Shown in pieces: positions 1-38,910 of a DNA stretch of 40,028 bases. The position numbers were made by a program, and so were the translations under genes. Under the pieces are notes generated by a model, which was not told the origin of the DNA, made no database searches, and saw only the letters and a program-made list of their open reading frames with translations. Source of the DNA: Candidatus Omnitrophota bacterium (GTDB lineage Bacteria; Omnitrophota; Gorgyraeia; JABMRN01; RBG-13-46-9); contig JAUWBJ010000004.1 of assembly GCA_030605095.1 (NCBI GenBank), positions 1 to 40,028 on the forward strand, read 5' to 3'. How positions within the stretch are numbered: position 1 is the stretch's first letter; each line of letters starts with the position of its first letter.

Positions 1-2200
1 CAGAAGCTCAAGTCGCTTGAAGACAGAGATATCCTGCCGAAACTGGCAGAAGTAAGAAAAACAGAAAATGCTTTAGAAAAAGCTCATGAATACGAAAAGA
101 CCGGTGATTTGAGGAGGGCGCTAAGAAAAATCAACAAAGCCTTAGGGAAAAAGCCCAAGGACACTACCGAACTTCTTGCGGCAAAAAAAAGAATTGCGCG
201 AATTATCAAAAGGAATAGGATGGTTTCGCACGCTGAAAAATTATTCGATACTGATGACCTCGAAGCCGCTGAAAATGCACTCAAAGAACTTGAAGTTCAC
301 TTCTGTGGGCCGAATATAGAGGTAACAGAAGAGGTAATGCAAAAGAAGACAGGAAGCGATAAAGAAGGATTTAAAGCTTGGCAACAACTCAAAGTGTCGA
401 TTAATAATTTGAGGCAGCAGGCTGAAAAACGGAAAGAACAACTTAATAAGGCAGAACTATTGCTAGAAAAAGAAGACTTTGCCGGTGCAGCCGCCAAGGT
501 GGATGAAGCGACAAAATATGGCGGACCTTCAACAGATACGAATAGCCTACTTAAGCGCATAGAAGATACCGAAAGGCAGAAAGACAACATTGCCATAATT
601 GATACTTCCTTGGATGAAATTAAGGCCGATTTAAACGAGAACAAAATAGATATAGAAGACTTAGGAGATTATACCTCAAGGCTTGAAGGCCAAATGAAGA
701 AAATACAAAAGATAGACTGGAAAAATTACAAGCAGAAACTTGAGAAAAAATCCGGCCAAATACAGCGTTCTATAACTTCAAAAAGAAAATCAATCAGCAA
801 GATAAACCAAGGAAGAAAATCCCGCATTATACAGCGATTAGGCGAGTTGGGAAATGAACTTAAAACTCTTGAAGCACCCAAGGATATCGTAGCGCTTAAA
901 AAGAAGGTTGCAACACAGAAGAATGCAGTAAAAAATGTTCTATCTAGAAATATAAGGAAAGAACTTACTCTGTCGTGCGAGGTCTTAAAGGTAAAAATCG
1001 AATCCAAGGCAAACCAGGCAGTGGAGAAAAGGATAAAGGAGATTCCCGAAAGTCTGCACGCCGTTGACGAAGAAATTCCCGAAGCTCAAACCCTCGAAGA
1101 AACAAGGGCATTGAGAGAAAGGCTAAATGCGGTTAATAGAGGCATTAACCAGGTTTTACAGGAAGAAGAAAAGGAAAGGTTATTGGGTTTATATCAAGAA
1201 GTTTCGGGTAGGCTTAGCGAAAAGCACGAAGATTTAAAGAAGAAGGTAGGCAATGAAACGCGAAAAATAGAAACTGCTTTACGAACGTTAGACGGACAAT
1301 TTATGCCGAAATATGCAGATCTATCAAGGGAGGAATTAGAAGAACTAAAGAAAGAGATTGATGAGGTTCCTTCAACTGAAGCTCAGGAAAGGCTTAGAAA
1401 GAGCGTAGCTGAAGTTAGAGAATCTATAGATAATAAACTAGAATTGTACAAAAAGACTATAAGAGAGAAAAAAATAATTGATGAAATGAAAAGAACGATA
1501 CAAATACACATAAATGCAGTCAAGGGTTGGTACATCACCGAGCGCAATGGTATGTTAAACACAGGTGTAACGCCTGAGCAAGTGGCCAAAGGGGGATACG
1601 AACTCTTGAATAGATTAGACCGAACAGTACCTGTTTCAGCAGAATTTTATGATAAGTACGAAAAGGAATTGAATGCAGCTGTAGCAGCGAAGAATAAAGC
1701 GCTGGAAGAAGCTAAAAAAGAAAGAGAAACTTCCCGGCCAGTCGAAGAAAGACAGGTAAGGCAGGAGGCAGAGGAAGGGGCCTTAACATACCTCGCAAAT
1801 CTTGAGGAAAAAATAGACCAAGCAGCTTCTCCTTCTGAACTAAGAAAATTACAACAGGCCATAGAACATATACCCGAAGATATTTGGCAGTGTCTAAGCA
1901 GTGAGCAACGGATGGACATTAAAGAAGAGCAAGCGAGGATGAATAGCGATATCGACACCATATTGGCAGAGAAAAAAGAGGCCGCAGCTTCGGTTCTTGC
2001 GGGATTGCCCAAGAAGTATAAGAAGCTAAATGCCGCCGTGAGGAAGTTGATAAATGCAACGATGAGGGGTGATGAAAAAGCAGCAGAGGAGGCTCATGCA
2101 AAAATAGCCGAGGAGTACGCCAAGGTAGTGGAAGACATGGATCCTGATGATAAGCAGAAATACCAAGATGCTATCAGTTTCCAACAAAAGCCACGAGGGA
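1..2200 (+). other. TPR-like / coiled-coil Lys-Glu rich helical region of giant protein
   Basis: Patterns such as ALEKAHEYEKTGDLRRALRKINKALGKKPKD and KAELLLEKEDFAGAAAKVDEATKYG; long charged helices follow. Confidence 0.6.
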
Positions 2201-5200
2201 AAACAGCATTTGTCATAACTCGGTTACTTGTAATCTTGGTTCCGCTAGTTGTGCTCGCAGCACTCGGGATCCATTATTGGCCTCAAATCAGCCCATATAT
2301 TCAAGAAGCTCTGCGACATTATCAAGTATCCATTGGTGCAAGTGGTTTGCATCAGACGGTGCAATATGCCTCAGTCATTCCTAATAACCTGCTTATAAAC
2401 ATAATCGGACTAATAATACTCGGTTTCCACTTCTTCTCAAAATATCTCGAATCCATGGAATTTTTGCTTTCCGAAGAAAATCCAACATTACACACGACCC
2501 CTAGCCCGCATCTGGGGTGGTTACCACTAGGGTCGCCATTTACAGCATTTTTGTCTGGCGTTCCTGCAGGAGGCAGGCAAGATAGGGAAAGTCAACCGGA
2601 TGATGACGCGATTGCGAATGGGGATGAGGTAAGCGGGGAAGAACTAAGCGGGGACGAGCTACTATATGCGGAGATTTATAAACTTACGAGCATTCTCATA
2701 GGCAATCCAGATAAAGCTGAGCGTCAGGAAGCCGGCGAAGAGCTATATCAAATTCGTCAGTCTCAACCCGAACTCGTTGATTCAAAAATCGAATATATGA
2801 TGGAGGAAGCCGGTAAAGTAGGGACCGAAGCCAAGGCAATAGGAAGAAGAATAGAAATCCTGAGGCTTGTTATTAAAGGCGTCTCCCAGCATCGAGTTGA
2901 GATAGATAAAGAGATCGGGAATGGCATGGTTTCGCGGTGGGAAGAAGGCAAAAGAAATATCAGCGCTCCGAACCTCAAAAAATTAGCCGACTACTTTGAT
3001 GTGAAACCGACTCTTATATATAGAGGTAAGACCTTAATAGAGGCGATAAAAGAGACTCGGCCGGATGCCAGAGGCGGAAGAATAAGAATCCTTCGCTACT
3101 CAAAAGGTTTCTTGCAATGGGAGCTCGCCCGAGAACTTGGAGTTACGCGTCAGGCAGTTACAGCCTGGGAAGAAAATCAACCTCTGAAACCGGCAAGCCT
3201 TTTAATATTGGCCAATTACTTTGGAAGAGACGAATCAATCTTTGTCGAGGAGCCGACCCTCATCTACAAAGGAAAGACATTAGTAGATGCTCTTAAAGAT
3301 GCCTCTACTATAGGCGAAAAAATAGTAATCCTTCGTTATTCAAAGGGGCTTAGAATAGAAGGGCTTGCGGATGAGACCGGAATTCCGTTGAAATATCTTT
3401 CCGACTACGAGAGGGGACTCAAACCGCCTGAGCCGGAAGACCTTGCCATACTTGCCGATTATTTCGAACTAGATTTGACACTTCTCGATAAAGCGGCTAG
3501 TCCGGAAGAGATAGTAATTTTATTGATTAATAAGCTTGAAAGGGCGAGGATCGCCACTATGATGGAGAGGATAGTCCGGGCCTTAAACTCTGTCTCGTTG
3601 AAAAAGACATTCATGGCGTATGACATATATTATACCTCGCAAGCTATCCGAGATAAGATAGCCAGATTCATGCCTTTCATTGAGACCGGAAGCTATCCTG
3701 TCGGCATAACAATGAAGAACGGTGTTACGCTGCTTCCTGATAATATGCTGACAAATCCGCATGTTATGAGTCAAGTAGAGGATAAATACGGTGACAATTT
3801 CTGGTCTGACGCACAGGCTACTGTTGATTTCCTCACCGAAAGCGACCCTCTGCCGGAAAAAGCCGATTTAATTATGGTGTTGAGAGGCGAAGACCTTGAA
3901 CTGGCGCGTGAGGCAGCCAGGATGTTTATGGCGGGCAAGGCAAGCAAGATACTTCTTTCGGGAGGTCAAGGGCAGCGTATATCCGAAGACCGGGAGAGCG
4001 AGGCTGAGAGATATAGAGAAGAGATAAAAGCTGTAATAATGGACGAATACGGTAAGGATGAATTCGATGCAGAAATGATTATAAGAAACAATGTCTTAAT
4101 TGTCGAAAGAGAATCTGATAGCCTTATTTACGATATGATACATAGCCTATATACATTAGAAGGGGAAGCATGGTGGATAGATCCTCCCCGCTCCCGATCC
4201 GTTATATTGATGCAGACACCTCTATTACTTAAGAGGTCAGCAGCTACATTTTTGAAGCAGTTCCCAGAAAACGTTACATTGTATAGACATTCATATAAAA
4301 CTATAAATCTTGCCGCTGAATCCGATTTAATTAAGAGGGGCGAGATAATAGCCGAGGCTTGGGATGAGCTGGAGAGATTGGAGAAGTATGGGCCCGGGTC
4401 CAGCGGCACTGGTGATGCCGTCGGGGTGAGAATGCCGGCTCAAGTCCAGGCCTTCAGGGATAATGTTACCCCAATATTGGAGGCCATGAGGACGGCTCTA
4501 TTCTTTCATGAGATGCTTCACGTTGTGTTGAACTCGATTTACTCTGAGAGTCCGGAGGATAATGCTGTATTAACCGCTGTGGCTGGATTGGGCAGCGGAT
4601 TTGACTGGTCAAGGCTACGCTCTGAACTCGGAGTAATGGGATGGCAGAGAGGTGAAGAAAGTCTAACCGAATATAGAGTGAGATTGTTGAATGAGGCGCT
4701 CGCAAAGATTCTGGAACTCGAATACTTATCGAGACGCGACTGGCCGACCGGGGATTTCAGCGCAAAACTTCAGTCCCTTTACAACTTACTCGGCCTTACC
4801 GACGATGATTCACGCGACTTCTGGATGAAGAGGCAACCAACGGACACCGCTCTCACCGGACTCCAGCAGGCCATACATGATACCTTCATGTCCCATGATT
4901 TGCTAAACCCCCATCGCCTCGCCGCGATTGCGAATGGGGATGAGTTAAGCAATGAGGATGAGCAGCTAAGCAAGGATATTTATATTCTTTCAGACACACT
5001 CATAAATTCTTCAGATAAAGCCGAGCGTCGGAAAGACGGCGAACGGCTATACCAGATATGCAAATCTCCGGAGGTTAATCCATTCTCATTAATCAAATAC
5101 ATGATGGGCAAAGCTGAGACGATAGGAAGAAGGGTGGAATGCCTGAGATTTATCAATAACCTCACACCGGAGGAGCCTGAGAGTGCCAGTGGGGTTAGCG

Positions 5201-8200
5201 CAGACGTGATTGAGAAATTGGAAAACGACGGTTATGTTATCTATCCTCCGGGAGCCCTCTTTAAATTAGCTGAATATTACAAAATAGACCCGATCCTTAT
5301 CTATAAAGGTAAGACTTTGATGAATGCCATAAAAGATACTGCTCGGGATGATATAGGTGCGAGGATAAGGATTCTCTGCCATTCAAAAGGTAAAACGCAA
5401 GAAGAACTGGAGGATATTCTTGGTGTTAACCGAGGCTTCGTTGCACAGTGGCAAAATAACGTCGTAAGACCTAGCCTGCAATATCTTGCAAAAATGAGCG
5501 AATATTTTGATAAAGAAGTTATAATTATATACAAAGGGAATACACTAACAGAGGCCCTTAAAAGCGCCGCTACTGACGGCGAGAAGATAGATATTCTTCG
5601 CCACTCAAAGCTCCTTACGCAGATAGAGCTCGCGTCTGGTATCGCGGTTAGGGGGATTTCAGAATCTACTATCTCAGGGTGGGAAAATAATATTATCCCG
5701 CTCAACGTAGAAGATTTCCTCATTGTTGCCGATTATTTTGATGTAGATATTACGCTTCTTTGCGGAATGGAGACGCGTGAAGCCATAAAAGCGGCGCTTA
5801 CTGTAATTGCCATCCCAGAGGTAGATTACCGCAGAAAAGATAAAATAGCCACAATTTTACATAAAATCGGCATAAGTTCCAAAACAGGCAGGCCCTTGGA
5901 AGACGGTATCTTTGCAATTTCACAGGACGAGATGGATAATATTACAAGACATGTAGACCCGGCTGAAAGAATAGGCTTACATGAATATACATTAGGAGGA
6001 GGCCTTGTCCTTCATACCCAGGATGCGAGTGAAAAGGAGGTAAGGGAAGGTTTAGCGCACGCCTGCAACAGGACTATATTTACGGAGGACTGGGATGAAG
6101 ATACTCAGAAATTCAACGGCGATACGGCAGCCTTTTTAGATAGCACTATATGTATATCGGATTATGACTTTTACGAAGAACTAAAGGTTTTATTCAACAT
6201 TCCTGTAGCGTGCGTGGAAGCCAATACCAACGTAGAAAAGCAATATGCCTATATCTTAGATGAAGCATTAGCCAAACTCACCGTCTATGAATATCTTAAG
6301 AAAGAAAACACCCCTCTTACTCGTAGAGAAGGCGACAATCTCACCCAGCTTATAAAAATATTCGACCTTGAATATGACGAATCCACCTATAGATATACTT
6401 CAAAGACTCTCGAGGGCTTCAACTCCTTACGACAGCGAATCTTCGACGCCCATGAACTGCACGTCAAGCCCATCCTCGCCGCGATTGCGAATGGGGATGA
6501 CTTAAGTGATGAGGATGAGCAGCTAATTTATATTCTTTCAGACATACTCATAAATTCTCCAGATAGAGCTGAGCGTCGGAAAGCCGGCGAACGGCTATAC
6601 CAGATATGCCAATCTCGTACTGAAATTCTTGACTCTTTGATTAATGACCTGATGGACAAAGTTGCTGGTGTAGGAAGAAAAATAGAAATTCTGCAATACC
6701 TTAATAACGTTACACAAGTGGCGCTTGCGGATGATATTGGGGTTACAGTATCGGTCATTGAGGACTGGGAAGAGGAGTTTGAAATACCTGCACAGGAGGA
6801 TATCGATAAGATAGCCGATTGCTTTGACATGGAGCTTGTATCCCTTAATCCCGACGATGACAGCATAACCCCTGACTCTCAAGGAAAAGACAAAGGGCCA
6901 ATAATTAAATCTATCTTAATCGCCATCCTTTCCTTCTTATCATTATCAGTGCTTCTTGCTATGAAGCCTCAAGGTGAAATAGGCTGGGCTCTACCAGTAA
7001 CCCTAATACTCCTTACTATACTCCTTACTGCGGTAATTTATGGAGTGATTTCTGCGATTGGAAGAATTGTTAAGAGAAAGCAGATGATGTATCTATTCAC
7101 AATGCCTGAGACTTCTAAATTTAGACCGGGTGAACAAATACTTTTTGCTAGTTGTGATACCTACGTTGACAGATTAGACGAAGATAAAATCGGTACATTC
7201 CTTGAAAAGATAGCAAGGACTATAGAAAAAGCTGCTAAAGTTTATGAAAAGAGAACCGGAAAAAAGGCTCTTGTCGCTGCGCTTTCCTATGCGACGACTA
7301 AACAAGGAGCCAGGTTATCACGCGACCCATTTGTACGGTATATGGAGAAAGCAGTTGAAATTGTAAGGGAGAGGAGCCCGAGGATAAATGTTTTAGGAGT
7401 TACTCAATTTGATGCCGCTATACGTAGGAAAGTATTTTTGGATAAGACAAAATCAAATTTTGCTCCCAAAGGTTTTCCGGTCAATGTATTTGTATTTCCT
7501 AATTCACAGTCTTTTGAGATTGCAAAAGATGTGATGGATTTCTTTAGGTCCAACCCTACAATTGGGGAAAAGTCAGAGTTACCCGGCAAGTATTTAGAGG
7601 AATTAGAAAGAATTGCCGAATCCAAGCAGGCGCGCATTGTTATTCCCGAGTCAACAAATCCGCTGGTGTTAGCGGCTGTGGCAAGATTTTTGAAAAAAGA
7701 ATTAGGCGAGGTTGTGCTTTTAGGGAAAAGGTCCGAGATAATATCGGTTGCATCGGAAAAAGGAATAAATATACGAGAAGCCGAAATTATAGACCCTGAA
7801 GAAGATCCTGAAGAACTTAATGAAATTGTAAAGTATTATTGTGAGAGACAAGCTCTCGGCGAGAGGACTAAAAAGGCTAAAGAGGTTGCAAGGAGAATTT
7901 TGAAACGTAAGGTAGTTCGTTACGGAGCAGGGATGGTGGCTTTAGGCAAGGCCGATTGCATGGTTGCAGGAAGTGTGTATGATTCCGCTGATGTTATCAC
8001 GGCTATCAAGATGCTTGTGGGGATGGATGAAGATGTTGAAACTCTATCAGGTGGCTTTTTGATGTGTTCGCAATCTAAAGATGTGGGTACTGACGGAAAG
8101 TTAATCCTTTCTGACATTGCTTTTACAGAATGTCCGAAAGACGCCAAGGAACTTTCCGATATTGCGGTGAATACAGCTCAGGATGTAGCAACTTATATCG

Positions 8201-11200
8201 GCCCTAACGTTAAACTGGCGTTTGTCTCCGGTAAGAATGTGGAAAGTAGCAAAATAAGGGAAGCAATTGAAATCACAAGAGAGGCGATAGGTAATAAATT
8301 TGATATAGATGGTTCAATTACCATAGATGGCCCAATAGGATTAGATGAAGCGCTGAAAGGTGGATATAATGCGATAATATTTCCCGACCTGAATGCAGCA
8401 AATAGTGCCTACAAGATGCTACAGGGGATATGCAAGTTTGATGGCTTGGGCATAATTTCCGGTGAGTGTTCTAAACCTGTGTTTGATATGTCGCGTGGAG
8501 CCGACATTAATGAGATTTATAGCTCGATGGTCCTGGCATGTTGTGGGGTAAAAGCCAAAAGCCCAGATGATGTTCAGACTTTAATCAACACCATCGAATC
8601 CGAAAGCGGCATCACAACCAAGTCGCAGAAGCGCATACAGGCGGCCGCCCAGACACTCAATAACCTCCCGCAGTCTGCAAACTTCCTGGAATATGGTGTG
8701 CATCTTGTTCCTCAGTCTGTGTTGGATAAGATTGCGGATGTGCTTCCGTCAATTGAAGTGGATCCGGATAATCCGGCGAGAGGCCTTGCCATGAAAAGCG
8801 GCATTATTCTAATCAGCAAATTTGAAGAGCCAATAACACCGGCAGAGAAGGAATATCTCCGGATGAGGTACGGCACTGACTGGATTAGTGCAGATGAGCC
8901 TACGAAGAAAGCCTGGCGGCAGGATATGCGCCAGTCCGTCTTCATCCATGAAATCGACCACCAGATATTTGATACAATCCTCAAGAATAATCCAGAATTA
9001 ATAAAGAATGCCCTCCTTACGCAAGTGGTAACCCATGTGAAGGGTACATCCTTGTTAGGCGTTACGGATAAGAATGAGCTGATAGCTCTCCTCAAAGACT
9101 CCGAAGAGCTAAAGAGTCTCAATAAAGAGTTAGCCAGATTCGACCAGTTAATGTTCCTCCGCGACCTCCTTGATGTTAATGGCAAGATTGCCTTTGATGC
9201 AAGCGCCAAGCCAGGCGATGAATGGCTCAAACTCAAAATTGTATTGGGTATTAGAGAGATTACACGGACCATCATAAGAGGAGACAAGTCAAAAGAAATC
9301 ACCGGCCTCTTCTCATCGAATAACAGTATCTTTGCCCTCATGGATGAAATCGACAGAATCTCTTTTGAGAATGGCCTCATGTCCCCTGGCCTCCTGCATG
9401 CGATTGCGGATGGGGAGATCAACGTAGCACTTATAGTAGATAACTACATCAGTTCAAATCCTGAGATGGCAGATTTAAGAAGTGCGCTCGTTGAAATTTT
9501 GGAAATCTGCAGGGACATCGACGTTTTAATACAAGTTAGGGACATGCTAAAAGAAAATCTCATTACAAAGAATGATGTTAGGCATAGGTTAATTTTAATA
9601 TCACATTCTGAGGATTATAAACCCGATGAGACGTTCGAAGCTATTCACAGGATGTTATCAGAAGGATTAATTACAACAGAAGATATCGAAACTAAATTAG
9701 CTCCTTTGGCAGAAAGAGCCGAACATTCTGCATTCTTAGCCTTTCAAACTCTTTACCATATGCTCAAAAGGGCCAAAGAGGAGGGCGTAGACAAAGAGAC
9801 TGCATTCGAACGTTTGCAAGCAGTTGCTGACGAAGTCGGTGACGACGCAGGCTATGTGTTCCATCAAATATGGGATAACTGGATGAAGTATTGGAGTGAG
9901 CGAAGGCAAGCTTATGCCATGACATTTGATGATATCCCTACTTATATACTTCCGGTCGCACAAAAATGCAAGGATTGGACGGCCTTTTATCTCAGTGTCC
10001 AGGAATATGTAATTAATAAAGAAGAATTGTTAAAAGTTTTGTCACTTCCGCTGACAGGCAGAAAAGCTGCTAAAGCATATGAACTTAAGGAGGAATTAAC
10101 GCGAGATTATCGTGAGCCCGCAATTTTTACAGAGGCTGAATTCGATGAATATATCATACCTATTATACAGAAATCAGGACTGCCTATAAGAGACCCTGTC
10201 AGGTATGTTAAGAATATGTTAAAGGATGGGTATATTACAAAACCTCAAATCCTTACTCATCTTGTTCCAATAGCAAATAATGCGCTGAATAGTACCGGGA
10301 AAACCTTTGGAAATATATATGCAATGTTAAATACAGGGTTACTTACGGCGGACCAGATAAAGACATTGATAATACCTACGTCTGAGAATGCCAAGAGAAG
10401 AACCGGCATTGTATTGAAACAAGCATATGAGCTTCTGTCGGGAGAGGAAGAAAGCACTCTGCCCCTAAGTTACATAATGACAGTATCGGATATACCAGTA
10501 TTAGGAAACCTGCAAACATCCGATGGATTGCGACAGGAACTAGATAAGTTTAAATCGAATATGTTGGGAAGTGGGGCCACCAAAGAGGCAGTTGTAAGCT
10601 ACCTCCATGACCTTCTTTCCTTAGATTGCAATAAAGAGAATATAACACAATATTTCTTTATACTGAGGTCCCGGATTGGCAAAATTAACGCAGACCTATT
10701 TGTTGCACGATACGAGCCCCTTCGGAATAAATTGGGCGATGATATATCTTGGCTTATACCGGCATTTGCTGACCTCTTTGGAGTTGATACGGCTAGGGGA
10801 AATACACGGTTCATATCAAACACAGAATTCAATAGAATCCTTGATAAAATCGAGACTGGGTTAGAAGATATCAAGCAATTAGTAGAAGTAAGTGTGTCCA
10901 AAGAACCAATATTATATAATCTTCTGCTCGCAAAACTACTTATGTACGGCAATATAAAGGAACTTGTATATAGAGATGAATCTCCATATAGAGCAACATT
11001 AGCGTTAAAGAATTTGAATGTGGATGCTTTTGTGAACATCAATGACTGGCACAATGTAAGGGATGCTCTCCATAATATACGCACTAAGGCTAGCAGTACC
11101 AGATGGTCTGCATTTGGTGCGAGGATAAGGGATAAAATCGGATATTACGTAAGCGATATCCTGGCCGACGATACTCTTGTCGAGATATATGCAGATGAAA

Positions 11201-14200
11201 TAGCTCAGGTGCTGGGCGATATCTTTGGTAGAAACGGAGGATTCGAGGAAGAATTTAAGAATGTCTACTATATGAAGGGAGAGGGTATAGAATATAAGCT
11301 ACTTTCGCGAAATGCGGACGAGCTTAAACTCGGAAACAGGACAGGAGACTGCACGGCAACCAATAGGCAAAATTTCTGGTCATTGCCGACATGGATGTCT
11401 CACCTTGGCTATCAGATACTTCAAGTATATAAAGACGGCAGGTTTGTTGAAAAGATGCATCTAATCATAACGGATAGCGTAGGCGTCCCGGGTATTACAA
11501 TAGACGCACATGAAGCGGTGCCGCAGACAGTCGAATCCGGTGGACGCCATGTATCCGGTGATCCAAAATTGATACGAACCCGCGAGGAGATATTCCAGGC
11601 CGGTATGTTAATGGTAAAAAAGATTGCATCACGTTTAGGAATACCAAAAGATGAGATCTACGCAAACGGAATTAGTGGAAGAAAATGGATAAAGAAGTTT
11701 TATGAGGAAGATTTTACTACAACGACTCATCTGCAGCACTTTAGGTTCTTGGACGGTGTTGCTCCTTCAAAGTATTTCTTTGATAAGGAATTCCATCTAC
11801 CATTTCAGGATCCAAAGATTTATATTCAAACCTTCGGCACAGGACAACTTTCCCCGGAGGTGCGAGAAGCGGTATCAAGAATAGAAGAGCAGTTGAACGC
11901 ATATATAGAGCGCCATCCTGAAAGCGAATTAGCCATTGCTGTTAAAGAAGGAGATAGGGCACGTGCTTCGCAGCTTATAGCTGAGGATGAGAATTTTGCC
12001 AAAGAGATTTCAGAGTTTACAAATGTTCTGGATGAGCAATCTCCTCCCATGACTATACAGGATGTCTACTCCTTGCTTTATTCGCCAACATTACGTGAGG
12101 GAAATGCGAATGCGTTTGTTATTGATGACGGTAGCCTTGAGGGCTATGAATCAAAATTGATAGAAAAGGCCTCAAGCGCTTCTTGCCACATAGATACGCG
12201 GCTGGCAGCTATTAGTGTGCTGGGGATGTTTTTTGATAGTGCGAATGCGCTGGGGGCGTTGAAGGAGTTGGTGGGAGGAGATACCGGATATCCACGAGAC
12301 AGTGATGAAGACAAACGTATTCGAGCAGTTGCGAAACATCCCCCGGCTGAAACTGACGACGACACAGCTTCTGCCTCATGGACGTGCGATCCAGAGGCCG
12401 AGGGAACCCTGCCACCAGGCATAAATAAGGATGGGAGAGTCGTCCGAGAACAGGAAATCCTCCAAAAAGCAGATGCCGAAGACGGCTTCACCATACACAA
12501 GATTACAGGTGTGAATAAGGAATACACCATCCGCATCGCGGACTCAATCCTGTCGGATGGCCATTTCCGGGCAATCTTACAGCGTGCACTAGCCCAGGCT
12601 GAGAAGGAAGGCCTCGACAACCGCATCCCCCTTACCTTCATAGATGCAGACTTTATTGTAGACTCTGACGGCAATGCCCACCTCGCAGGCGACTGTAAGA
12701 TGAACAGCATCGTCGCCCTCAAGAAACGCTACAGAGCCATCCTCCAAGCCGTAGAAGACCAAATCCCAGGCGCCAGCGACATCCTCCTCCAGGTCCTAAT
12801 CGAGCATGAACTTAGGCATGAAAACCCCAACATCACAGATAATGAGACGCAATTGACTCAAATAGACATCGCCCGCCTCCGTGCTTTACTCGGCGAAGAT
12901 AATCAAGTAATTGTTAATGTTGCGCGTGTTTTTGATGAAATGGAGATTATATCTGACAACTTTGTTGATATGCTCTTGCAATCTGTTGTACGTTCGATCT
13001 ATGATGAAATTAAAGAAGAAACAAGAGAGGATATTACTTTGAGTCAAGTTTTAACGGAAGGCGATGTTTATTGTCTCAGAAATGAGATTGGAAATGTTAG
13101 CGATATTAAGAATAAGCTGCGCGATGAGATAGGTCAATTTCTTTTTGGAGCAAAAGAAAATGAGGCCATTCCGTCTCCGGAGGAAGAAAAGGTTGTTGAA
13201 AATGCACTGTCTTTAGTCAAAGAAAAGATCGAGTCTATGGGTTATTCGTATTCGCAGCCCAGGATTATGTACGTTAAGCCCGGTGTGTTTCCAGACATAG
13301 CCTATTTCTTTAGATCTTATAATACAGTGGTTCTTCAAGTTGGTCAAGACAGTAGGAATTTGGAAGGTGATGTCATACATGAAGTCCTTCACGGAAATCA
13401 GCGTGGATTTGCACCAAGAGTTCTCTCTGATGGAATGACAACTTACATTCAAGCGATGATTCTGATGGAACGCGACGGAATTCGAGATTTCTCATTAGAA
13501 GCTTTTGGCGAAAATCTTATGAGAATTCTGGATGGATTTGATGATTCAGAGATAGGACCGTTTAGTTATCCCTATGAAGTTTTAACAATAGCAGTAGCCG
13601 TGGATTCTCTTGGACTTAAACCATTGGCAGATGCCTATTTCAACGGCGATTACACGGGTATTGAGGGGAGCATGCATAAAGAGAAATGGCAGGAATTAAT
13701 TGATTTGGCTAACGATTTTGAAGGCAAAGAATATGAAGAACTAGACCCGTATTTAGACAGTGTCTTGGAAATTTTCGGTCGAAACGCCATAGAAGCACTC
13801 GGGCAACTCGGCACGCCGGAGGCAGCTCGGGTGCTAACTCGTTTTGTTAAAAGTGCAAGCGACAGAACATCTGAAGTTGTGCAAGCTGCTATTCAAGCTT
13901 TGCATACCGGAGAGTATGTCGATAAGATGGACACGCGCAGTGAATTTGATGAAAACGGCAGAATCTCGCAGGTAATCGACAGACACAGCCGCGTAATCGA
14001 GAAATATGAGTATGAGGGCGACACGGACGAGATTAAAAAGGTGACGCTCATGAATGTGAAGACGGGCAAGACGGTGGAGCTAGTAGTGAGCGACCCCGAT
14101 GCGCCCATATTTACTTTCGATGTTTACGTTGATGGTGAAAAAATTGAACTTCTGCAACCCCAACCCGATGTTTATCAGGAGGTTTCTTTAAGAGTTATCT

Positions 14201-17130
14201 TAACCACTAGAGAATATACAATTGGTAGGATTAATTTGGGAGATTTTCAATTTCAAGACGTAGGAACAACTATATTCAATTGGCTGGCTAATCACGCATT
14301 GAGAAATGGTGTAAATAAAATTGCAGTTAATTATACAAGTAGGCCAACCATGTTTCATATTATGCAGTCTATTATTGATGAGAATCTGGGCGATATTTCT
14401 ACGGAAGAAGGTACGTTTTATGCAGAGACAAAAGATGGAGGAGGTATACAAATCAGAGTTAGCAATGGAATTGTTGAAAGCTGTGACATAGAAGGACTAG
14501 AAAGAAAGACATTTGAGATCGAGGATAATAGATACGTTAAAATAGGCGGCGAAATTATTGGCGAATTATTGTCGTTTCCGGCGATAGAAATAAAAGGGAC
14601 ACCCAACCCCTTTAACATATGGATCGACCCATCCGGCGCAATAACGCAATACTGGGCGAAGAGCCAGGAGTTGAGAAGGAGGATTTACAGAGATGGCACA
14701 CAGGTAGATTTTGTCTATGATGGCGATGAGCTCACCGGCGTAACTGGCACATATGAGGCGCTCGATAATGCGGCGAGAGATACTGAGATGGCGGAAGTTT
14801 GTCCCGAATTCCGCCTGCTCGCAATAGAGGCGCTCGCCGCACTCGGCACGAAGGAAGCAGTAGAGTCTATTATGGATGTGATTGAGAGCGTGGACCCAAG
14901 CAAAGCTGCCGAAAAGGAACTTTGTAAAAAAGCATGTCAAGCTCTTCTGGATATGACTCTGGCTGCCGGCCAGAACCTCGGCGAATTAATATACATGCGC
15001 GGCCAGCAGTTCTTCAACAACTGGGCAGAAGGTCTAAAGGCTCTTGGCAAGCGATATATAAAAGACCCAACAAAGTATAAAGCAACCCATCTTCCCAATG
15101 ACATCATCATCCTCAATATCGACCATCCCGATCATAGGACTAAAAGCGCCTCTTGGAATTCTAATTGGGCGTTTGTTAATAAGGTTATATTGAATGAACT
15201 AAAAAGAGGAAAGACAAAAGCAGAAAATGCCCAATATGCAGAACTGTATAAAAAGATAGATGAGGAGATTTTATCGTCTCATGATCATATGCATTCATTG
15301 ATAGACTATTTAGGATATTATTATGGAGACTTCGTTTTTGGCTATACACAAATAGGAAGATATTTAAGCAAGATTTTAGGTGAAATTCGTAAACTTGGAT
15401 TGCCTACTGAAAAAGGAACATACTCTCGGATTATAACTGAACTGAAAAAAGGCGCACTCAACTACAACGCCATAAAAGCCACGATTGCGCATGAGAAGAC
15501 GCATCAGGTAATCCTTTCGAAATATGATACAGAGGAGTACTGGGATGTTGTGAATATGTTTACCTCCGCCGGCGAAAATTGGAGAAAAACAAAGAAAGAG
15601 TTCTACAGGAAACAAGTGGAGCATCCTGGCTTGGATGACAATGACATAAATCTGATGTCGGATGCCCAAATTGAGATGGCCTTAGCTCTCACAGGCGATT
15701 GGGGCGAGTCCGAATTCACCGATACCTTTACGGCACCACTTATCGGACAACCTGCCATTCCGTTACTTTTCTCTAGAGGCAAGGTTATCAGACTGCGGAA
15801 GAAGACTGACACAACATTTGAAGTTACATTTGATGGTATTGAGACATATACAATCGGAATACCTGGCCAGGATGAAGTGGTCTACGTTCCAACTAAAGCC
15901 ATCACTATTGAACTAACAGATGGTGGACACTTCCACATCAAGACTAGAATTGTGAACAAACGAAGGCTTGTCAATGAGATGCTCGGTCTCTTCATCAATA
16001 ATAGAATACATATGACAAGACACGGAAAGCCGAAGGAGGGAAACGAGACCTTTGTGGCGAATGTCTCAGCTATCGTGGAATGGAGTCGGAACTTTAATGA
16101 GCCGGCTAATGAAGGTAATTCTATAACGCTCCTTACCCCTCGGTACAACAACGTTAAGATCACAAAGAAAGCCGGAAATATATTCGAAGTTGAGCCTGCC
16201 GGAAAAGACCCGCTCACAAAATTAATACCGGCCAACGGCCAAATCTCTTACTTCCCCGAATACGGCATTATGATTGGCAGAACAGAGGCCGGTCAGCTCT
16301 ACATCAAGATGCTCAAAGACGAACTTATGGACATAGGGCTTAACAAGCCCTTCAGCGCTGCCCTCGATGCCGCCTCAAACGGCGTCGACGACGCCATCAA
16401 CTCCTCGAGCAGAAGCGATGATATAGTAAATGACATAGACAGGTTCGCAGAAAAGAGATCGGTTACGCAAGCCGAAGTTATGCCGCCTGTTATCAAGCAG
16501 TCATTCCTAAGAGACCTTACCAAGCCCGAGCAGTTAACCCAAAACATGATAGAGGCAATACTTTCGATTCTGCTTTCGGGGAAGAAGTTAGTGCTGATGT
16601 TTGATAGCGGAATAGGGGGCTTACAGAGCTCCTCTCCTTTAGGTGTTTTCAGAAGCTTGAAAATGCTTAAAAAAAACAAAAACTTCAAAAAGCTTTTAAA
16701 GAATCTTGTTATTGTCGAGACGACGGCAGAGAATATGCATAATAAAATCCAGAAGTATTTCGGAGAAGAAAATACCGAAGTACTTGTATATGCCAGAGAG
16801 TCAGAAAGAGAAACATTACAGAAGCTCGAAGACAAAACGAGAATAAATCTTTTCTATATCAATGAAAAGGGATTCACGCCTGATTCATGGTACCCACTTA
16901 CCGAAATCGTAATGCTTACATTGGTCAAGCACCTAAATGGTTATAGCAAGGATGAATTACTTGCTAGCATTGACAAATCAAATATAAAGCTGGATCAATT
17001 AAATATAGCGTCGATAACAGGAAATGAAGTCATTTTGATATTCAAGCTTTTGCCCAATGCCAAGCCGTATAGTCCGCAGGAACTAAGGAAGAAAAACGCA
17101 AGACTAAAACGGCTTGTCAAATCGGCATAA
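1..17130 (+). CDS. Giant multidomain protein, 3' part (>=5709 aa; N-terminus outside window)
   Basis: Frame 1 is open from base 1 (QKLKSLEDRDILPKLAEVRKTENALEKAHEYEKTGD-) into the 109..17130 ORF and stops at TAA 17128-17130. The TTG at 109 is only the first permitted start in the window. Confidence 0.95.
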   Translation, partial: QKLKSLEDRDILPKLAEVRKTENALEKAHEYEKTGDLRRALRKINKALGKKPKDTTELLAAKKRIARIIKRNRMVSHAEKLFDTDDLEAAENALKELEVHFCGPNIEVTEEVMQKKTGSDKEGFKAWQQLKVSINNLRQQAEKRKEQLNKAELLLEKEDFAGAAAKVDEATKYGGPSTDTNSLLKRIEDTERQKDNIAIIDTSLDEIKADLNENKIDIEDLGDYTSRLEGQMKKIQKIDWKNYKQKLEKKSGQIQRSITSKRKSISKINQGRKSRIIQRLGELGNELKTLEAPKDIVALKKKVATQKNAVKNVLSRNIRKELTLSCEVLKVKIESKANQAVEKRIKEIPESLHAVDEEIPEAQTLEETRALRERLNAVNRGINQVLQEEEKERLLGLYQEVSGRLSEKHEDLKKKVGNETRKIETALRTLDGQFMPKYADLSREELEELKKEIDEVPSTEAQERLRKSVAEVRESIDNKLELYKKTIREKKIIDEMKRTIQIHINAVKGWYITERNGMLNTGVTPEQVAKGGYELLNRLDRTVPVSAEFYDKYEKELNAAVAAKNKALEEAKKERETSRPVEERQVRQEAEEGALTYLANLEEKIDQAASPSELRKLQQAIEHIPEDIWQCLSSEQRMDIKEEQARMNSDIDTILAEKKEAAASVLAGLPKKYKKLNAAVRKLINATMRGDEKAAEEAHAKIAEEYAKVVEDMDPDDKQKYQDAISFQQKPRGKTAFVITRLLVILVPLVVLAALGIHYWPQISPYIQEALRHYQVSIGASGLHQTVQYASVIPNNLLINIIGLIILGFHFFSKYLESMEFLLSEENPTLHTTPSPHLGWLPLGSPFTAFLSGVPAGGRQDRESQPDDDAIANGDEVSGEELSGDELLYAEIYKLTSILIGNPDKAERQEAGEELYQIRQSQPELVDSKIEYMMEEAGKVGTEAKAIGRRIEILRLVIKGVSQHRVEIDKEIGNGMVSRWEEGKRNISAPNLKKLADYFDVKPTLIYRGKTLIEAIKETRPDARGGRIRILRYSKGFLQWELARELGVTRQAVTAWEENQPLKPASLLILANYFGRDESIFVEEPTLIYKGKTLVDALKDASTIGEKIVILRYSKGLRIEGLADETGIPLKYLSDYERGLKPPEPEDLAILADYFELDLTLLDKAASPEEIVILLINKLERARIATMMERIVRALNSVSLKKTFMAYDIYYTSQAIRDKIARFMPFIETGSYPVGITMKNGVTLLPDNMLTNPHVMSQVEDKYGDNFWSDAQATVDFLTESDPLPEKADLIMVLRGEDLELAREAARMFMAGKASKILLSGGQGQRISEDRESEAERYREEIKAVIMDEYGKDEFDAEMIIRNNVLIVERESDSLIYDMIHSLYTLEGEAWWIDPPRSRSVILMQTPLLLKRSAATFLKQFPENVTLYRHSYKTINLAAESDLIKRGEIIAEAWDELERLEKYGPGSSGTGDAVGVRMPAQVQAFRDNVTPILEAMRTALFFHEMLHVVLNSIYSESPEDNAVLTAVAGLGSGFDWSRLRSELGVMGWQRGEESLTEYRVRLLNEALAKILELEYLSRRDWPTGDFSAKLQSLYNLLGLTDDDSRDFWMKRQPTDTALTGLQQAIHDTFMSHDLLNPHRLAAIANGDELSNEDEQLSKDIYILSDTLINSSDKAERRKDGERLYQICKSPEVNPFSLIKYMMGKAETIGRRVECLRFINNLTPEEPESASGVSADVIEKLENDGYVIYPPGALFKLAEYYKIDPILIYKGKTLMNAIKDTARDDIGARIRILCHSKGKTQEELEDILGVNRGFVAQWQNNVVRPSLQYLAKMSEYFDKEVIIIYKGNTLTEALKSAATDGEKIDILRHSKLLTQIELASGIAVRGISESTISGWENNIIPLNVEDFLIVADYFDVDITLLCGMETREAIKAALTVIAIPEVDYRRKDKIATILHKIGISSKTGRPLEDGIFAISQDEMDNITRHVDPAERIGLHEYTLGGGLVLHTQDASEKEVREGLAHACNRTIFTEDWDEDTQKFNGDTAAFLDSTICISDYDFYEELKVLFNIPVACVEANTNVEKQYAYILDEALAKLTVYEYLKKENTPLTRREGDNLTQLIKIFDLEYDESTYRYTSKTLEGFNSLRQRIFDAHELHVKPILAAIANGDDLSDEDEQLIYILSDILINSPDRAERRKAGERLYQICQSRTEILDSLINDLMDKVAGVGRKIEILQYLNNVTQVALADDIGVTVSVIEDWEEEFEIPAQEDIDKIADCFDMELVSLNPDDDSITPDSQGKDKGPIIKSILIAILSFLSLSVLLAMKPQGEIGWALPVTLILLTILLTAVIYGVISAIGRIVKRKQMMYLFTMPETSKFRPGEQILFASCDTYVDRLDEDKIGTFLEKIARTIEKAAKVYEKRTGKKALVAALSYATTKQGARLSRDPFVRYMEKAVEIVRERSPRINVLGVTQFDAAIRRKVFLDKTKSNFAPKGFPVNVFVFPNSQSFEIAKDVMDFFRSNPTIGEKSELPGKYLEELERIAESKQARIVIPESTNPLVLAAVARFLKKELGEVVLLGKRSEIISVASEKGINIREAEIIDPEEDPEELNEIVKYYCERQALGERTKKAKEVARRILKRKVVRYGAGMVALGKADCMVAGSVYDSADVITAIKMLVGMDEDVETLSGGFLMCSQSKDVGTDGKLILSDIAFTECPKDAKELSDIAVNTAQDVATYIGPNVKLAFVSGKNVESSKIREAIEITREAIGNKFDIDGSITIDGPIGLDEALKGGYNAIIFPDLNAANSAYKMLQGICKFDGLGIISGECSKPVFDMSRGADINEIYSSMVLACCGVKAKSPDDVQTLINTIESESGITTKSQKRIQAAAQTLNNLPQSANFLEYGVHLVPQSVLDKIADVLPSIEVDPDNPARGLAMKSGIILISKFEEPITPAEKEYLRMRYGTDWISADEPTKKAWRQDMRQSVFIHEIDHQIFDTILKNNPELIKNALLTQVVTHVKGTSLLGVTDKNELIALLKDSEELKSLNKELARFDQLMFLRDLLDVNGKIAFDASAKPGDEWLKLKIVLGIREITRTIIRGDKSKEITGLFSSNNSIFALMDEIDRISFENGLMSPGLLHAIADGEINVALIVDNYISSNPEMADLRSALVEILEICRDIDVLIQVRDMLKENLITKNDVRHRLILISHSEDYKPDETFEAIHRMLSEGLITTEDIETKLAPLAERAEHSAFLAFQTLYHMLKRAKEEGVDKETAFERLQAVADEVGDDAGYVFHQIWDNWMKYWSERRQAYAMTFDDIPTYILPVAQKCKDWTAFYLSVQEYVINKEELLKVLSLPLTGRKAAKAYELKEELTRDYREPAIFTEAEFDEYIIPIIQKSGLPIRDPVRYVKNMLKDGYITKPQILTHLVPIANNALNSTGKTFGNIYAMLNTGLLTADQIKTLIIPTSENAKRRTGIVLKQAYELLSGEEESTLPLSYIMTVSDIPVLGNLQTSDGLRQELDKFKSNMLGSGATKEAVVSYLHDLLSLDCNKENITQYFFILRSRIGKINADLFVARYEPLRNKLGDDISWLIPAFADLFGVDTARGNTRFISNTEFNRILDKIETGLEDIKQLVEVSVSKEPILYNLLLAKLLMYGNIKELVYRDESPYRATLALKNLNVDAFVNINDWHNVRDALHNIRTKASSTRWSAFGARIRDKIGYYVSDILADDTLVEIYADEIAQVLGDIFGRNGGFEEEFKNVYYMKGEGIEYKLLSRNADELKLGNRTGDCTATNRQNFWSLPTWMSHLGYQILQVYKDGRFVEKMHLIITDSVGVPGITIDAHEAVPQTVESGGRHVSGDPKLIRTREEIFQAGMLMVKKIASRLGIPKDEIYANGISGRKWIKKFYEEDFTTTTHLQHFRFLDGVAPSKYFFDKEFHLPFQDPKIYIQTFGTGQLSPEVREAVSRIEEQLNAYIERHPESELAIAVKEGDRARASQLIAEDENFAKEISEFTNVLDEQSPPMTIQDVYSLLYSPTLREGNANAFVIDDGSLEGYESKLIEKASSASCHIDTRLAAISVLGMFFDSANALGALKELVGGDTGYPRDSDEDKRIRAVAKHPPAETDDDTASASWTCDPEAEGTLPPGINKDGRVVREQEILQKADAEDGFTIHKITGVNKEYTIRIADSILSDGHFRAILQRALAQAEKEGLDNRIPLTFIDADFIVDSDGNAHLAGDCKMNSIVALKKRYRAILQAVEDQIPGASDILLQVLIEHELRHENPNITDNETQLTQIDIARLRALLGEDNQVIVNVARVFDEMEIISDNFVDMLLQSVVRSIYDEIKEETREDITLSQVLTEGDVYCLRNEIGNVSDIKNKLRDEIGQFLFGAKENEAIPSPEEEKVVENALSLVKEKIESMGYSYSQPRIMYVKPGVFPDIAYFFRSYNTVVLQVGQDSRNLEGDVIHEVLHGNQRGFAPRVLSDGMTTYIQAMILMERDGIRDFSLEAFGENLMRILDGFDDSEIGPFSYPYEVLTIAVAVDSLGLKPLADAYFNGDYTGIEGSMHKEKWQELIDLANDFEGKEYEELDPYLDSVLEIFGRNAIEALGQLGTPEAARVLTRFVKSASDRTSEVVQAAIQALHTGEYVDKMDTRSEFDENGRISQVIDRHSRVIEKYEYEGDTDEIKKVTLMNVKTGKTVELVVSDPDAPIFTFDVYVDGEKIELLQPQPDVYQEVSLRVILTTREYTIGRINLGDFQFQDVGTTIFNWLANHALRNGVNKIAVNYTSRPTMFHIMQSIIDENLGDISTEEGTFYAETKDGGGIQIRVSNGIVESCDIEGLERKTFEIEDNRYVKIGGEIIGELLSFPAIEIKGTPNPFNIWIDPSGAITQYWAKSQELRRRIYRDGTQVDFVYDGDELTGVTGTYEALDNAARDTEMAEVCPEFRLLAIEALAALGTKEAVESIMDVIESVDPSKAAEKELCKKACQALLDMTLAAGQNLGELIYMRGQQFFNNWAEGLKALGKRYIKDPTKYKATHLPNDIIILNIDHPDHRTKSASWNSNWAFVNKVILNELKRGKTKAENAQYAELYKKIDEEILSSHDHMHSLIDYLGYYYGDFVFGYTQIGRYLSKILGEIRKLGLPTEKGTYSRIITELKKGALNYNAIKATIAHEKTHQVILSKYDTEEYWDVVNMFTSAGENWRKTKKEFYRKQVEHPGLDDNDINLMSDAQIEMALALTGDWGESEFTDTFTAPLIGQPAIPLLFSRGKVIRLRKKTDTTFEVTFDGIETYTIGIPGQDEVVYVPTKAITIELTDGGHFHIKTRIVNKRRLVNEMLGLFINNRIHMTRHGKPKEGNETFVANVSAIVEWSRNFNEPANEGNSITLLTPRYNNVKITKKAGNIFEVEPAGKDPLTKLIPANGQISYFPEYGIMIGRTEAGQLYIKMLKDELMDIGLNKPFSAALDAASNGVDDAINSSSRSDDIVNDIDRFAEKRSVTQAEVMPPVIKQSFLRDLTKPEQLTQNMIEAILSILLSGKKLVLMFDSGIGGLQSSSPLGVFRSLKMLKKNKNFKKLLKNLVIVETTAENMHNKIQKYFGEENTEVLVYARESERETLQKLEDKTRINLFYINEKGFTPDSWYPLTEIVMLTLVKHLNGYSKDELLASIDKSNIKLDQLNIASITGNEVILIFKLLPNAKPYSPQELRKKNARLKRLVKSA
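2203..2445 (+). other. Two predicted transmembrane segments in giant protein
   Basis: TAFVITRLLVILVPLVVLAALGIHYW and NLLINIIGLIILGFHFF hydrophobic runs. Confidence 0.7.
2842..3498 (+). other. Three tandem XRE/Cro-C1-type HTH modules (cluster A)
   Basis: Repeated pattern R-I-x-I-L-R-x-S-K-G ... LAxxxGVxxxxVxxWExxxxxPxxxxLxxLAxYFxxxxxLIYKGKTLxxALK. Confidence 0.75.
3850..4390 (+). other. YdcF / DUF218 (ElyC-SanA-like) domain in giant protein
   Basis: KADLIMVLRGEDLELAREAARMFMAGKASKILLSGGQG...ERESDSLIYDM...SVILMQTPLLLKRSAATFLKQFP resembles YdcF-like folds. Confidence 0.6.
4507..4521 (+). other. Zincin-like HExxH motif 1 (HEMLH)
   Basis: In-frame FFHEMLHVVLNSIY in the giant ORF. Confidence 0.6.
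5125..5765 (+). other. Three tandem XRE-type HTH modules (cluster B)
   Basis: Same pattern as cluster A: RVECLRFINN..., RIRILCHSKGKTQEELEDILGVNRGFVAQWQ..., KIDILRHSKLLTQIELASGI...STISGWENN. Confidence 0.7.
6676..6850 (+). other. Single XRE-type HTH module (cluster C)
   Basis: RKIEILQYLNNVTQVALADDIGVTVSVIEDWEEEFEIPAQEDIDKIADCFDMELVSL. Confidence 0.65.
6900..7065 (+). other. Transmembrane hairpin in giant protein
   Basis: IIKSILIAILSFLSLSVLLAM and ALPVTLILLTILLTAVIYGVISAI. Confidence 0.7.
7120..7545 (+). other. Phosphotransacetylase-like C-terminal half-domain
   Basis: ALSYATTKQG...VREKSPR-like segment...GVTQFDAAIRRKVFLDKTKSN...VNVFVFPNSQSFEIAKDV resembles Pta C-terminal motifs (LSYSTKGS, GELQFDAA, NVFVFPNLEAGN). 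Confidence 0.6.
7624..8556 (+). other. Complete phosphotransacetylase (PTA/PTB-family)-like domain embedded in giant protein
   Basis: ARIVIPESTNPLVLAAVARFLKKELGEVVLLGKRSEI...KADCMVAGSVYDSADVITAIKMLVGMDEDVETLSGGFLM...LSDIAFTECPKDAKELSDIAVNTAQDVATYIGPNVKLAFVS...DGSITIDGPIGLDEAL...NAIIFPDLNAANSAYKMLQ. Confidence 0.75.
8947..8961 (+). other. Zincin-like HExxH motif 2 (HEIDH)
   Basis: In-frame SVFIHEIDHQIFDTIL. Confidence 0.6.
12805..12819 (+). other. Zincin-like HExxH motif 3 (HELRH)
   Basis: In-frame LIEHELRHENPNITDNETQLTQID. Confidence 0.6.
13378..13392 (+). other. Zincin-like HExxH motif 4 (HEVLH)
   Basis: In-frame GDVIHEVLHGNQRGFAPRVLSDGMTTYIQ. Confidence 0.65.
15490..15504 (+). other. Zincin-like HExxH motif 5 (HEKTH)
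   Basis: In-frame KATIAHEKTHQVILSKYD. Confidence 0.6.
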
Positions 17131-17134
17131 CGAT

Positions 17135-17201
17135 TTTTGGCCCGGGATTAACGGTGGTATCGTCCTTCCCTAAGCGGGGCGATACCCCTCCCGGGCCAAA
17201 A
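17135..17201 (+). terminator. Compound hairpin after giant gene
   Basis: Outer arms TTTTGGCCCGGGA (17135-17147) and TCCCGGGCCAAAA (17189-17201) are fully complementary. Inner arms GGTATCGTCC (17156-17165) and GGGCGATACC (17177-17186) pair with one G-U. Confidence 0.75.
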
Positions 17202-17374: not shown

Positions 17375-17749
17375 ATGAGAGAACTAATATTTAAGAACTT
17401 AACGACTCCTACCTCTAAAAAAAGAGATATCTCCGTAGAAGAAGTTGTAGAGAGAAATGGACTAATTTCTTCAACTAAGAAAAGGTCCATCTATTTTATA
17501 AGAGGGGCCCGTCGTATAAAATCCAAAGGCGAACTCAAAAAATGGATAGATACGAGGAAGAAGAATCCCGATTTAAATAAAAAATTCTTCCATATATTAC
17601 GGAATTATTCGGATAAAAATAAACAAGATAAATTAATGTGCAAGATGAGGGGCTCTTTCTATGTAATCTCAGGCGAGTCCGCATATAATATTGTATTTGT
17701 GCACGCGATAAAAATAAGCTATCGGCAAGCTCATGGCAAGCCGGCTTAA
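17375..17749 (+). CDS. Uncharacterised 124-aa basic protein
   Basis: ORF with strong SD (GAAAGGAG) 7-8 nt before ATG; no family recognised. Confidence 0.75.
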   Translation: MRELIFKNLTTPTSKKRDISVEEVVERNGLISSTKKRSIYFIRGARRIKSKGELKKWIDTRKKNPDLNKKFFHILRNYSDKNKQDKLMCKMRGSFYVISGESAYNIVFVHAIKISYRQAHGKPA

Positions 17750-18088: not shown

Positions 18089-18133
18089 ATGAAGAAAAAA
18101 ATAAAAAGTAAAAGAAAAGGAAGGGCGGGGTGA
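18089..18133 (+). CDS. Putative 14-aa basic leader peptide MKKKIKSKRKGRAG
   Basis: ATG 18089; stop TGA 18131-18133 overlaps the gpsA GTG start (GTGA). Confidence 0.4.
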   Translation: MKKKIKSKRKGRAG

Positions 18134-19119
18134 AGCAGAAAATTGCGGTTCTTGGAGATGGCGGATGGGGAACCACGGTAGCCATTCTTCTATCTAATAA
18201 AGGGTATGATGTTACTCTGTGGGGGGTATTTCCCGATTATATCGCTCTTTTACAGAAAGAGAGGGTCAATAACAAGTTTCTTCCCGGGATAAAGATACCC
18301 GAGGCAGTCTATTTGACATCGGATATAAACCGGATATCACAGGATGCTACTTTCGTAATTGCTATACCATCTAAATACTTACGCGAAACTATCTCCTGCT
18401 TTAAAGGCAAGGTTGGCGAAAAAATCATTTCTCTTACGAAAGGCATAGAGACAAAGACGCTAAAAAGGCCGTCTGAAGTTATATCAGAGGTTTTGGGAAA
18501 CTCAAAAATAAGCGTTCTTTCGGGTCCGAGCATATCGTTCGAGGTGGCCAGGAATCTCCCAACCACGCTTGTGGCGGCTTCCGATGACCGGGCTCTTGCT
18601 AAAGAGATGCAGGGCATTTTCACCACGCCGAATTTTAGAGTTTATACATCAAGCGATTTAATCGGCGTCGAATTGGGAGGCGCTTTAAAAAACATTATAG
18701 CTATTGCGGCGGGTATCTCCGATGGCATGGGTTTTGGCGTAAATACGAAAGCAGCGCTTTTAACGCGGGGATTGGCGGAAATCATTCGCCTGGGAACGAA
18801 AATGGGCGCCAAAAAGGAGACGTTCTTCGGTTTAAGCGGCTTGGGAGACCTTGCTACAACGTGTATGAGCCCTCATTCAAGAAACCGCCGGCTCGGCGAA
18901 GAAATAGGAAAGGGAAAGAAGCTTAAAGCTCTTTTAAAAGAGACTGAAATGATAATCGAGGGCATAACTACGACGAAATCTACTTATGAGCTGTCTAAAA
19001 AATTTGGCGTGGAGATGCCCATAACGGAAAAGATTTATGAAGTTTTATATACGGGTAAAAACCCAAAAGATGCCGTTAGGGAGTTAATGACGAGAGCCCT
19101 TAAAGCGGAGGGAATATGA
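18130..19119 (+). CDS. gpsA: Glycerol-3-phosphate dehydrogenase [NAD(P)+]
   Basis: KIAVLGDGGWGTTVAILL ... LSGPSISFEVA ... ELGGALKNIIAIAAGI; GTG start. Confidence 0.95.
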   Translation: MKQKIAVLGDGGWGTTVAILLSNKGYDVTLWGVFPDYIALLQKERVNNKFLPGIKIPEAVYLTSDINRISQDATFVIAIPSKYLRETISCFKGKVGEKIISLTKGIETKTLKRPSEVISEVLGNSKISVLSGPSISFEVARNLPTTLVAASDDRALAKEMQGIFTTPNFRVYTSSDLIGVELGGALKNIIAIAAGISDGMGFGVNTKAALLTRGLAEIIRLGTKMGAKKETFFGLSGLGDLATTCMSPHSRNRRLGEEIGKGKKLKALLKETEMIIEGITTTKSTYELSKKFGVEMPITEKIYEVLYTGKNPKDAVRELMTRALKAEGI

Positions 19120-21518: not shown

Positions 21519-21593
21519 CGGGGCGTGGCGCAGTTTGGCAAGCGCGCTTGCTTGGGGTGCAAGAGGTCCGCGGTTCGAATCCGCGCGCCCCGA
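21519..21593 (+). tRNA. tRNA-Pro (anticodon GGG)
   Basis: Cloverleaf: acceptor CGGGGCG/CGCCCCG + A; D stem GCGC/GCGC; anticodon arm CTTGC-TTGGGGT-GCAAG; T arm CGCGG-TTCGAAT-CCGCG. CCA not encoded. Confidence 0.93.
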
Positions 21594-38795: not shown

Positions 38796-38892
38796 ATTCT
38801 GATACTCTCCAACCTATGTTTTACCCAAAAATGTTAAAAAGAAAAAAGCTAGATTGTTTTTACATTACTGTGACACTTCGAAAATCGATTTG

Positions 38893-38901
38893 TGGTATAA
38901 T
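38893..38901 (+). promoter_or_regulatory. Extended -10 promoter
   Basis: TGGTATAAT (TGn-TATAAT), 9 nt before ATG 38911. Confidence 0.6.
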
Positions 38902-38910
38902 TTGCACAAA

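Follow-up and report, generated by a model that had tools for sequence, protein, structure and literature searches.

Giant ORFs and modular exported proteins described previously

Giant ORFs of more than 20 kb, such as the 39,678-aa ORF of Velamenicoccus archaeovorus, are known from the Omnitrophota, where they have been described as poorly conserved and hard to interpret; attachment or degradation, and predation or parasitism, have been proposed as their functions (Seymour et al. 2023, PMC10066038). The gene analyzed here enters at the left edge of the window, that is, the whole 40,028-nucleotide stretch of Candidatus Omnitrophota DNA under study, and resembles these ORFs in its length class, in the combination of several transmembrane (TM) segments, detected by hydropathy, with long soluble parts, in the scarcity of annotated domains and in the small size of the genome. 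It differs from the published giant ORFs, as they were described, in that its ends are conserved, its modules are exchanged off-register, its locus has a recognizable empty counterpart and the gene is preceded by a c-di-GMP riboswitch. The Giant1-5 proteins of Apilactobacillus kunkeei, reported as extracellular proteins of 3,000-8,000 aa encoded by consecutive genes in a 1.5-Mb genome (PMC12863079), are comparable in these respects; their host is Gram-positive.

Two further systems invite comparison. As in T9SS cargo of Bacteroidota, a signal peptide and a variable cargo are combined with a conserved domain at the very C-terminus. However, the sorting domain of T9SS cargo has fewer residues and is rich in beta structure, whereas the C-terminal domain found here comprises about 215 aa, is predicted to adopt an alpha/beta fold and matches no Pfam family; searches of the C-terminal region against Pfam and NCBIfam yielded no match to a T9SS sorting domain family. 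With polymorphic toxin systems the family shares a conserved delivery part, exchangeable modules and recombination between paralogs but, unlike in those systems, both ends are constant, the variable part is internal and no toxin or immunity gene was recognized. In the published articles searched, we found no description of shared ends of giant ORFs. Giant ORFs as such are already known from Omnitrophota, and it is the shared ends that seem to be new.

A giant frame with conserved ends

Positions 1..17130 of the window (forward strand, as are all features described below) constitute a single stop-free frame of 5,709 codons plus a stop that is 5'-open at the left edge. Given the base composition, such a run would arise by chance with a probability of about 10^-164. 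Over the same positions, each of the other five frames contains between 153 and 492 stops, and a coding pattern in codon-position GC extends across the full length of the frame. The uninterrupted 17.1-kb frame leaving the left edge, as originally predicted from the sequence, was thus confirmed. The window corresponds to the whole of contig C70 from a genome of 1.37 Mb (109 contigs, 92% complete), so that the truncation of the frame on the left is due to a break in the assembly.

The last 212 residues of the frame (aa 5498-5709; 16492..17127) recur in relatives as a domain of about 215 aa that is located at the ORF end, either at the stop or a few residues from it, in 45 of 45 distinct ORFs; matches to the first profile that were weak and ended early extend to the ORF end with the iterated profile. 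Using an enlarged profile, we detected this C-terminal domain (hereafter C-domain) in 36 genomes sampled from the class and in another genome of the phylum, in many cases with multiple copies, and family members also occur in tandem. The median length of the C-domain frames is 1,558 aa, with 30 of 74 exceeding 2,000 aa and the longest reaching 7,588 aa. No match was found in viral contigs, nor was a relative of known structure detected. A single-sequence model of the domain was too poor for fold assignment, and its best Foldseek hit, to the GlmS isomerase domain (E 0.007), was not used.

At the opposite end, most of the complete members start with a signal peptide, called from hydropathy and motif (LLQDIxWAxPxI), followed by the motif LQVxSxF and, in many cases, by a module of about 100 aa (N-module). 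The N-module and the C-domain are present on the same ORF in 35 of 78 cases. Among the C-domain ORFs without an N-module, 13 frames on the forward strand and several on the reverse strand are cut off by a contig edge; inspection of 20 further starts revealed other signal-peptide-like sequences in ten, and a few resemble split genes or gaps. Judging from these comparisons, the giant gene is a member of a lineage-wide family whose ends are conserved and whose middle is shuffled. The original prediction had described a giant mosaic ORF, of a kind known from Omnitrophota-like lineages, with an unfamiliar combination of domains; this description stands, with the addition that conserved ends common to dozens of large ORFs flank the mosaic on both sides. 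Through these ends, what looked like orphans become members of one family open to searching, counting and testing, which provides a handle on giant genes. The ends also separate a constant part, possibly concerned with export, anchoring or assembly, from an exchangeable one. The 215-aa C-domain is also small enough for expression and structure solution.

Two relatives deserve mention on their own account. The longest one seen is a 9,919-aa N-module frame that starts at about position 8699 of G006:C70 and is 3'-open at the contig edge. In G009:C139, the C-domain of one paralog is spread over two overlapping frames, and this gene looks like a frameshifted family member.

The locus and the missing 5' part of the gene

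Search of the same genome identified a second contig, C61, the last gene of which is a 3'-open frame of 2,206 aa with a signal peptide at its start. The gene order on C61 is lepA-like, der, plsY and the giant frame (the first three genes being named from sequence), and in the window the giant frame is followed by orf124 (17375..17749), the conserved right neighbor that marks the locus, by gpsA (glycerol-3-phosphate dehydrogenase; 18130..19119), the next conserved neighbor, and by hom. The two contigs have a linker in common (aa 818-904 of the window frame; 2452..2712) which recurs in the C61 part with 59% amino acid identity and 88% DNA identity over 2458-2606. The C61 frame carries the N-module (E 3.4e-38) and, given the join, the giant gene starts in the manner of its relatives. 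In profile searches of this genome, a strong N-module was detected on C61 alone and a strong C-domain in the window alone.

Comparison with related genomes reveals both empty and occupied versions of the locus. In the closed genome G001, which belongs to the same genus, der, plsY and orf124 adjoin and there is no giant gene, with 337 bp from the plsY side to the orf124 side; homology to C61 stops at the plsY stop codon (4326), and homology to the window starts at 17198, 68 bases beyond the stop of the giant gene. In G004 and G006, der, plsY, orf124 and gpsA are found on a single contig with only small unrelated ORFs between them, and G005 has the arrangement der-plsY-orf124. In G002 and G003, the locus is occupied and lies on two contigs, one with plsY ahead of an N-module frame and the other with a C-domain frame ahead of gpsA, which brings the number of genomes with an occupied locus to three. 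By this comparison of gene orders, the giant gene is present or absent between close relatives.

No sequence overlap was found between C61 and the window. The end of the C61 frame was also compared with the start of the G002:C64 frame; their similarity was not significant (p 0.05) and was dropped. Nevertheless, because of the synteny (der-plsY-giant on one side and giant-orf124-gpsA on the other), the empty site in G001 and the occupied sites in G002 and G003, C61 and the window very probably represent two sides of one gene, with the 5' part (at least 2,206 codons) at C61 4567-11182 and the 3' part at 1..17130 of the window. Joined by synteny, without continuous sequence, the 17.1 kb of the window and the 6.6 kb of C61 amount to about 23.7 kb, and the protein, counting the C61 part, very probably has at least 7,915 aa (about 8,000 residues).

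A c-di-GMP-I riboswitch upstream of the giant gene

A c-di-GMP-I riboswitch (RF01051) is located directly upstream of the start codon of the giant gene, at C61 4453-4538; the match is full length and scores 56.9 bits against a gathering score of 35. The 3' strand of the riboswitch overlaps a terminator-like hairpin (-25.1 kcal/mol) that is followed by a U run, and because of this overlap the ligand-bound aptamer and the terminator would be mutually exclusive. From this layout, we infer that c-di-GMP should turn the giant gene on. Together with the empty site in the genome of the same genus, the riboswitch allows testable statements on the gain and loss of the gene and on the timing of its expression.

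Among 384 sampled genomes of the bacterial class, 340 contain c-di-GMP-I riboswitches, with a maximum of 11 in a single genome, and all 14 control genomes lack them. The possibility that the riboswitch is a feature of the giant gene family was rejected, given that no match above the cut-off was obtained for the other members scanned. Within C61 4453-4567, about five bases separate the U run of the terminator from the start codon of the giant gene, too few to accommodate an ordinary ribosome-binding site. At two other loci of the class (L177 and L190), the genes that follow c-di-GMP-I riboswitches resemble, by eye, type IV or Flp-like pilins.

Modules of the giant protein

The window part of the protein begins with a helical, coiled-coil-rich segment (aa 1-730; 1..2190), which is followed by a first TM hairpin (aa 737-755 and 791-809; 2209..2427). 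Downstream, there are seven XRE-HTH repeats of about 75 aa arranged in three blocks and recognized with the family profile (HTH_3, E 7e-25), namely repeats 1-3 (aa 942-1170; 2824..3510), repeats 4-6 (aa 1704-1925; 5110..5775) and repeat 7 (aa 2219-2285; 6655..6855), the last of which precedes a second TM hairpin (aa 2301-2319 and 2335-2353; 6901..7059). Both the HTH and the TM assignments of the original prediction were thus confirmed, the former by the profile match and the latter by hydropathy.

The remaining assignments fared less evenly. A zincin-like module is present in two copies, one of which, module A, consists of a first part (aa 1164-1245; 3490..3735), similar to aa 2851-2938, and a second part (aa 1496-1576; 4486..4728) with an HEMLH motif at aa 1503, and is interrupted by a DUF218/YdcF-like insert (aa 1289-1425; 3865..4275). 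Module B (aa 2851-3053; 8551..9159) contains HEIDH at aa 2983, and three additional motifs of this type are found farther downstream, HELRH (aa 4269; 12805..12819), HEVLH (aa 4460; 13378..13392) and HEKTH (aa 5164; 15490..15504). Altogether, the window contains five HExxH motifs against 0.11 expected, and the sampled ORFs contain 19 against 2.3 expected. The zincin call is therefore upheld at the level of the motif but not at that of a family, as neither the zincin-like modules nor the HExxH stretches matched a peptidase family or a PDB entry. The DUF218 match is weak (20 bits against a curated cut-off of 27.6; E 6.8e-4) and the insert has no match in PDB; a similar stretch is present in G010:C162. 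The HEAT assignment is likewise reduced to one weakly matching repeat (aa 4594-4634; 13780..13902; HEAT_2, E 7.8e-7). The proposed TPR-like segment reached only E 0.03, without real support, and for the YD-like segment no YD/Rhs repeats were matched in Pfam or NCBIfam. Piecewise self-comparison identified two internal repeat pairs, aa 3174-3260 and 3398-3484 (9520..10452) and aa 5238-5314 and 5360-5436 (15712..16308), and a PHROGs search returned HTH matches only.

A further module is phosphotransacetylase (PTA)-like (aa 2533-2846; 7597..8538), with E 5e-60 to PF01515 and PDB relatives down to 2e-30. Of the residues that we take to form the active site of Methanosarcina thermophila Pta (Arg87, Arg133, Arg287, Ser309 and Arg310), the module retains Arg87, Ser309 and Arg310 but has Thr in place of Arg133 and Gly in place of Arg287; by contrast, ten stand-alone relatives have Arg or Lys at position 133 and Arg at position 287. 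Because of the loss of these two arginines, the module is probably inactive, i.e., no longer an acetyltransferase; the fold family named in the original prediction is confirmed. In a phylogenetic tree, the branch leading to the module is 5.7 substitutions per site long, compared to a median of 0.21. A Glu that is shared at position 316 initially pointed to capture of the module from its own lineage; this idea was dropped because the tree cannot place such a long branch. Scanning of contigs from named genomes with the module detected Bacteroidota PTAs only.

The co-occurrence of HTH and PTA modules with TM segments in one chain had made the topology appear unclear. It becomes less puzzling with the C61 part, which by hydropathy contributes the signal peptide and two further TM segments: because of the N-terminal signal peptide and the pairing of the TM segments into hairpins, the large soluble parts are expected on one side of the membrane, and the HTH and PTA modules would then be outside the cytoplasm. 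Some other members of the family have odd numbers of predicted TM segments.

The shuffled middle and its possible explanations

The positional ortholog of the giant gene, G002:C64, shares with the window frame aa 1-816 (40% identity, covering the helical segment) and aa 5501-5709 (40%), and between aa 816 and 5501 there is no match at E 1e-3. Pairwise matches between the large ORFs compared follow the same pattern: 145 join C-termini and 27 join N-termini, and most of the 21 remaining matches fall at different positions in the two proteins. Thus, a methyltransferase-like module at 192-385 of the C61 part corresponds to 2583-2768 of G108:C5 (37% identity), and the window segment 1286-1465 matches G010:C162 3993-4177 off-register.

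The explanation to which we incline, and which we consider reasonably probable, is that the giant protein (at least 7,915 aa with C61) is an exported, hairpin-anchored mosaic, switched by c-di-GMP, whose ends are constant and whose middle is exchangeable and in part dead. The most serious alternative, in our assessment an unlikely one, is gene accretion, under which the protein would be an exported structural chain (coat, tether or adhesin) whose in-frame captured fragments serve as bulk, so that only the length and the ends matter. In its favor are the PTA module, which lost Arg133 and Arg287 and sits on a long branch, and the middle, much of which matches no family and which is not conserved between positional orthologs. 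Against it are the HExxH motifs, kept far in excess of expectation both in the window and in the sampled ORFs, the glutamate-dehydrogenase-like module of G008:C199, which still strongly matches its family (E 2e-46), and the 43-49% identity that several modules retain in distant members.

The predation or parasitism proposed for Omnitrophota giant ORFs (PMC10066038), the zinc-peptidase-like motifs and a variable payload held between conserved ends would all suit an effector or predation weapon, an exported chain delivered to, or acting on, a host or prey cell. We deem this improbable: searches of Pfam, NCBIfam and PHROGs recovered no known toxin domain, the variation lies inside the chain rather than at its C-terminus as it does in polymorphic toxins, and metabolic and HTH modules would be odd payloads. 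A cytosolic giant scaffold or regulator binding DNA through its seven XRE-HTH repeats, strong as their family scores are, is very improbable in view of the signal peptide carried by the 5' part and by nearly all complete relatives, the TM hairpins and the position of the HTH modules outside the conserved frame of the family. Finally, an assembly or base-calling artefact that fused several genes, to which the fragmented assembly and the open 5' end might point, is scarcely credible against more than 17 kb without stops and with an even coding signal, the presence of both ends in one frame of up to 7,588 aa in independent genomes, and the occupation of the same locus in three genomes.

Under the favored explanation of an exported mosaic, the Sec machinery would thread the giant protein out via its signal peptide, and the paired TM segments would anchor it as membrane hairpins with the long soluble stretches outside the cytoplasm. 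The C-domain would perform a common job, probably in folding or anchoring or as the part that a partner in export or assembly recognizes. The middle would evolve as modules are duplicated, inserted and exchanged among family members; some modules, such as the zinc-peptidase-like ones, plausibly act, while others, such as PTA, would be dead relics. The riboswitch and the overlapping terminator would switch the gene on at high c-di-GMP, the usual signal of surface life, which would fit a protein that contacts or degrades other cells or particles. More tentatively, and with some doubt, we suggest that the signal-peptide motif with the N-module and the C-domain might be the two halves of a dedicated, so far undescribed system of this lineage for export and display that would bring freely exchangeable modules to the surface and that, in at least one species, would be switched by c-di-GMP.

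Other genes in the window

At the right end of the window, two ORFs that follow a chaperonin gene (38854-39468 and 39571-40026) have no Pfam match. A tRNA gene (21519-21593) is located between genes for threonine-synthase-like and phosphoglycerate-mutase-like proteins. The uvrB gene (31241-34873) contains an intein within UvrB, with Intein_splicing at aa 104-598, LAGLIDADG_3 at aa 374-453 and an HTH at aa 486-540.
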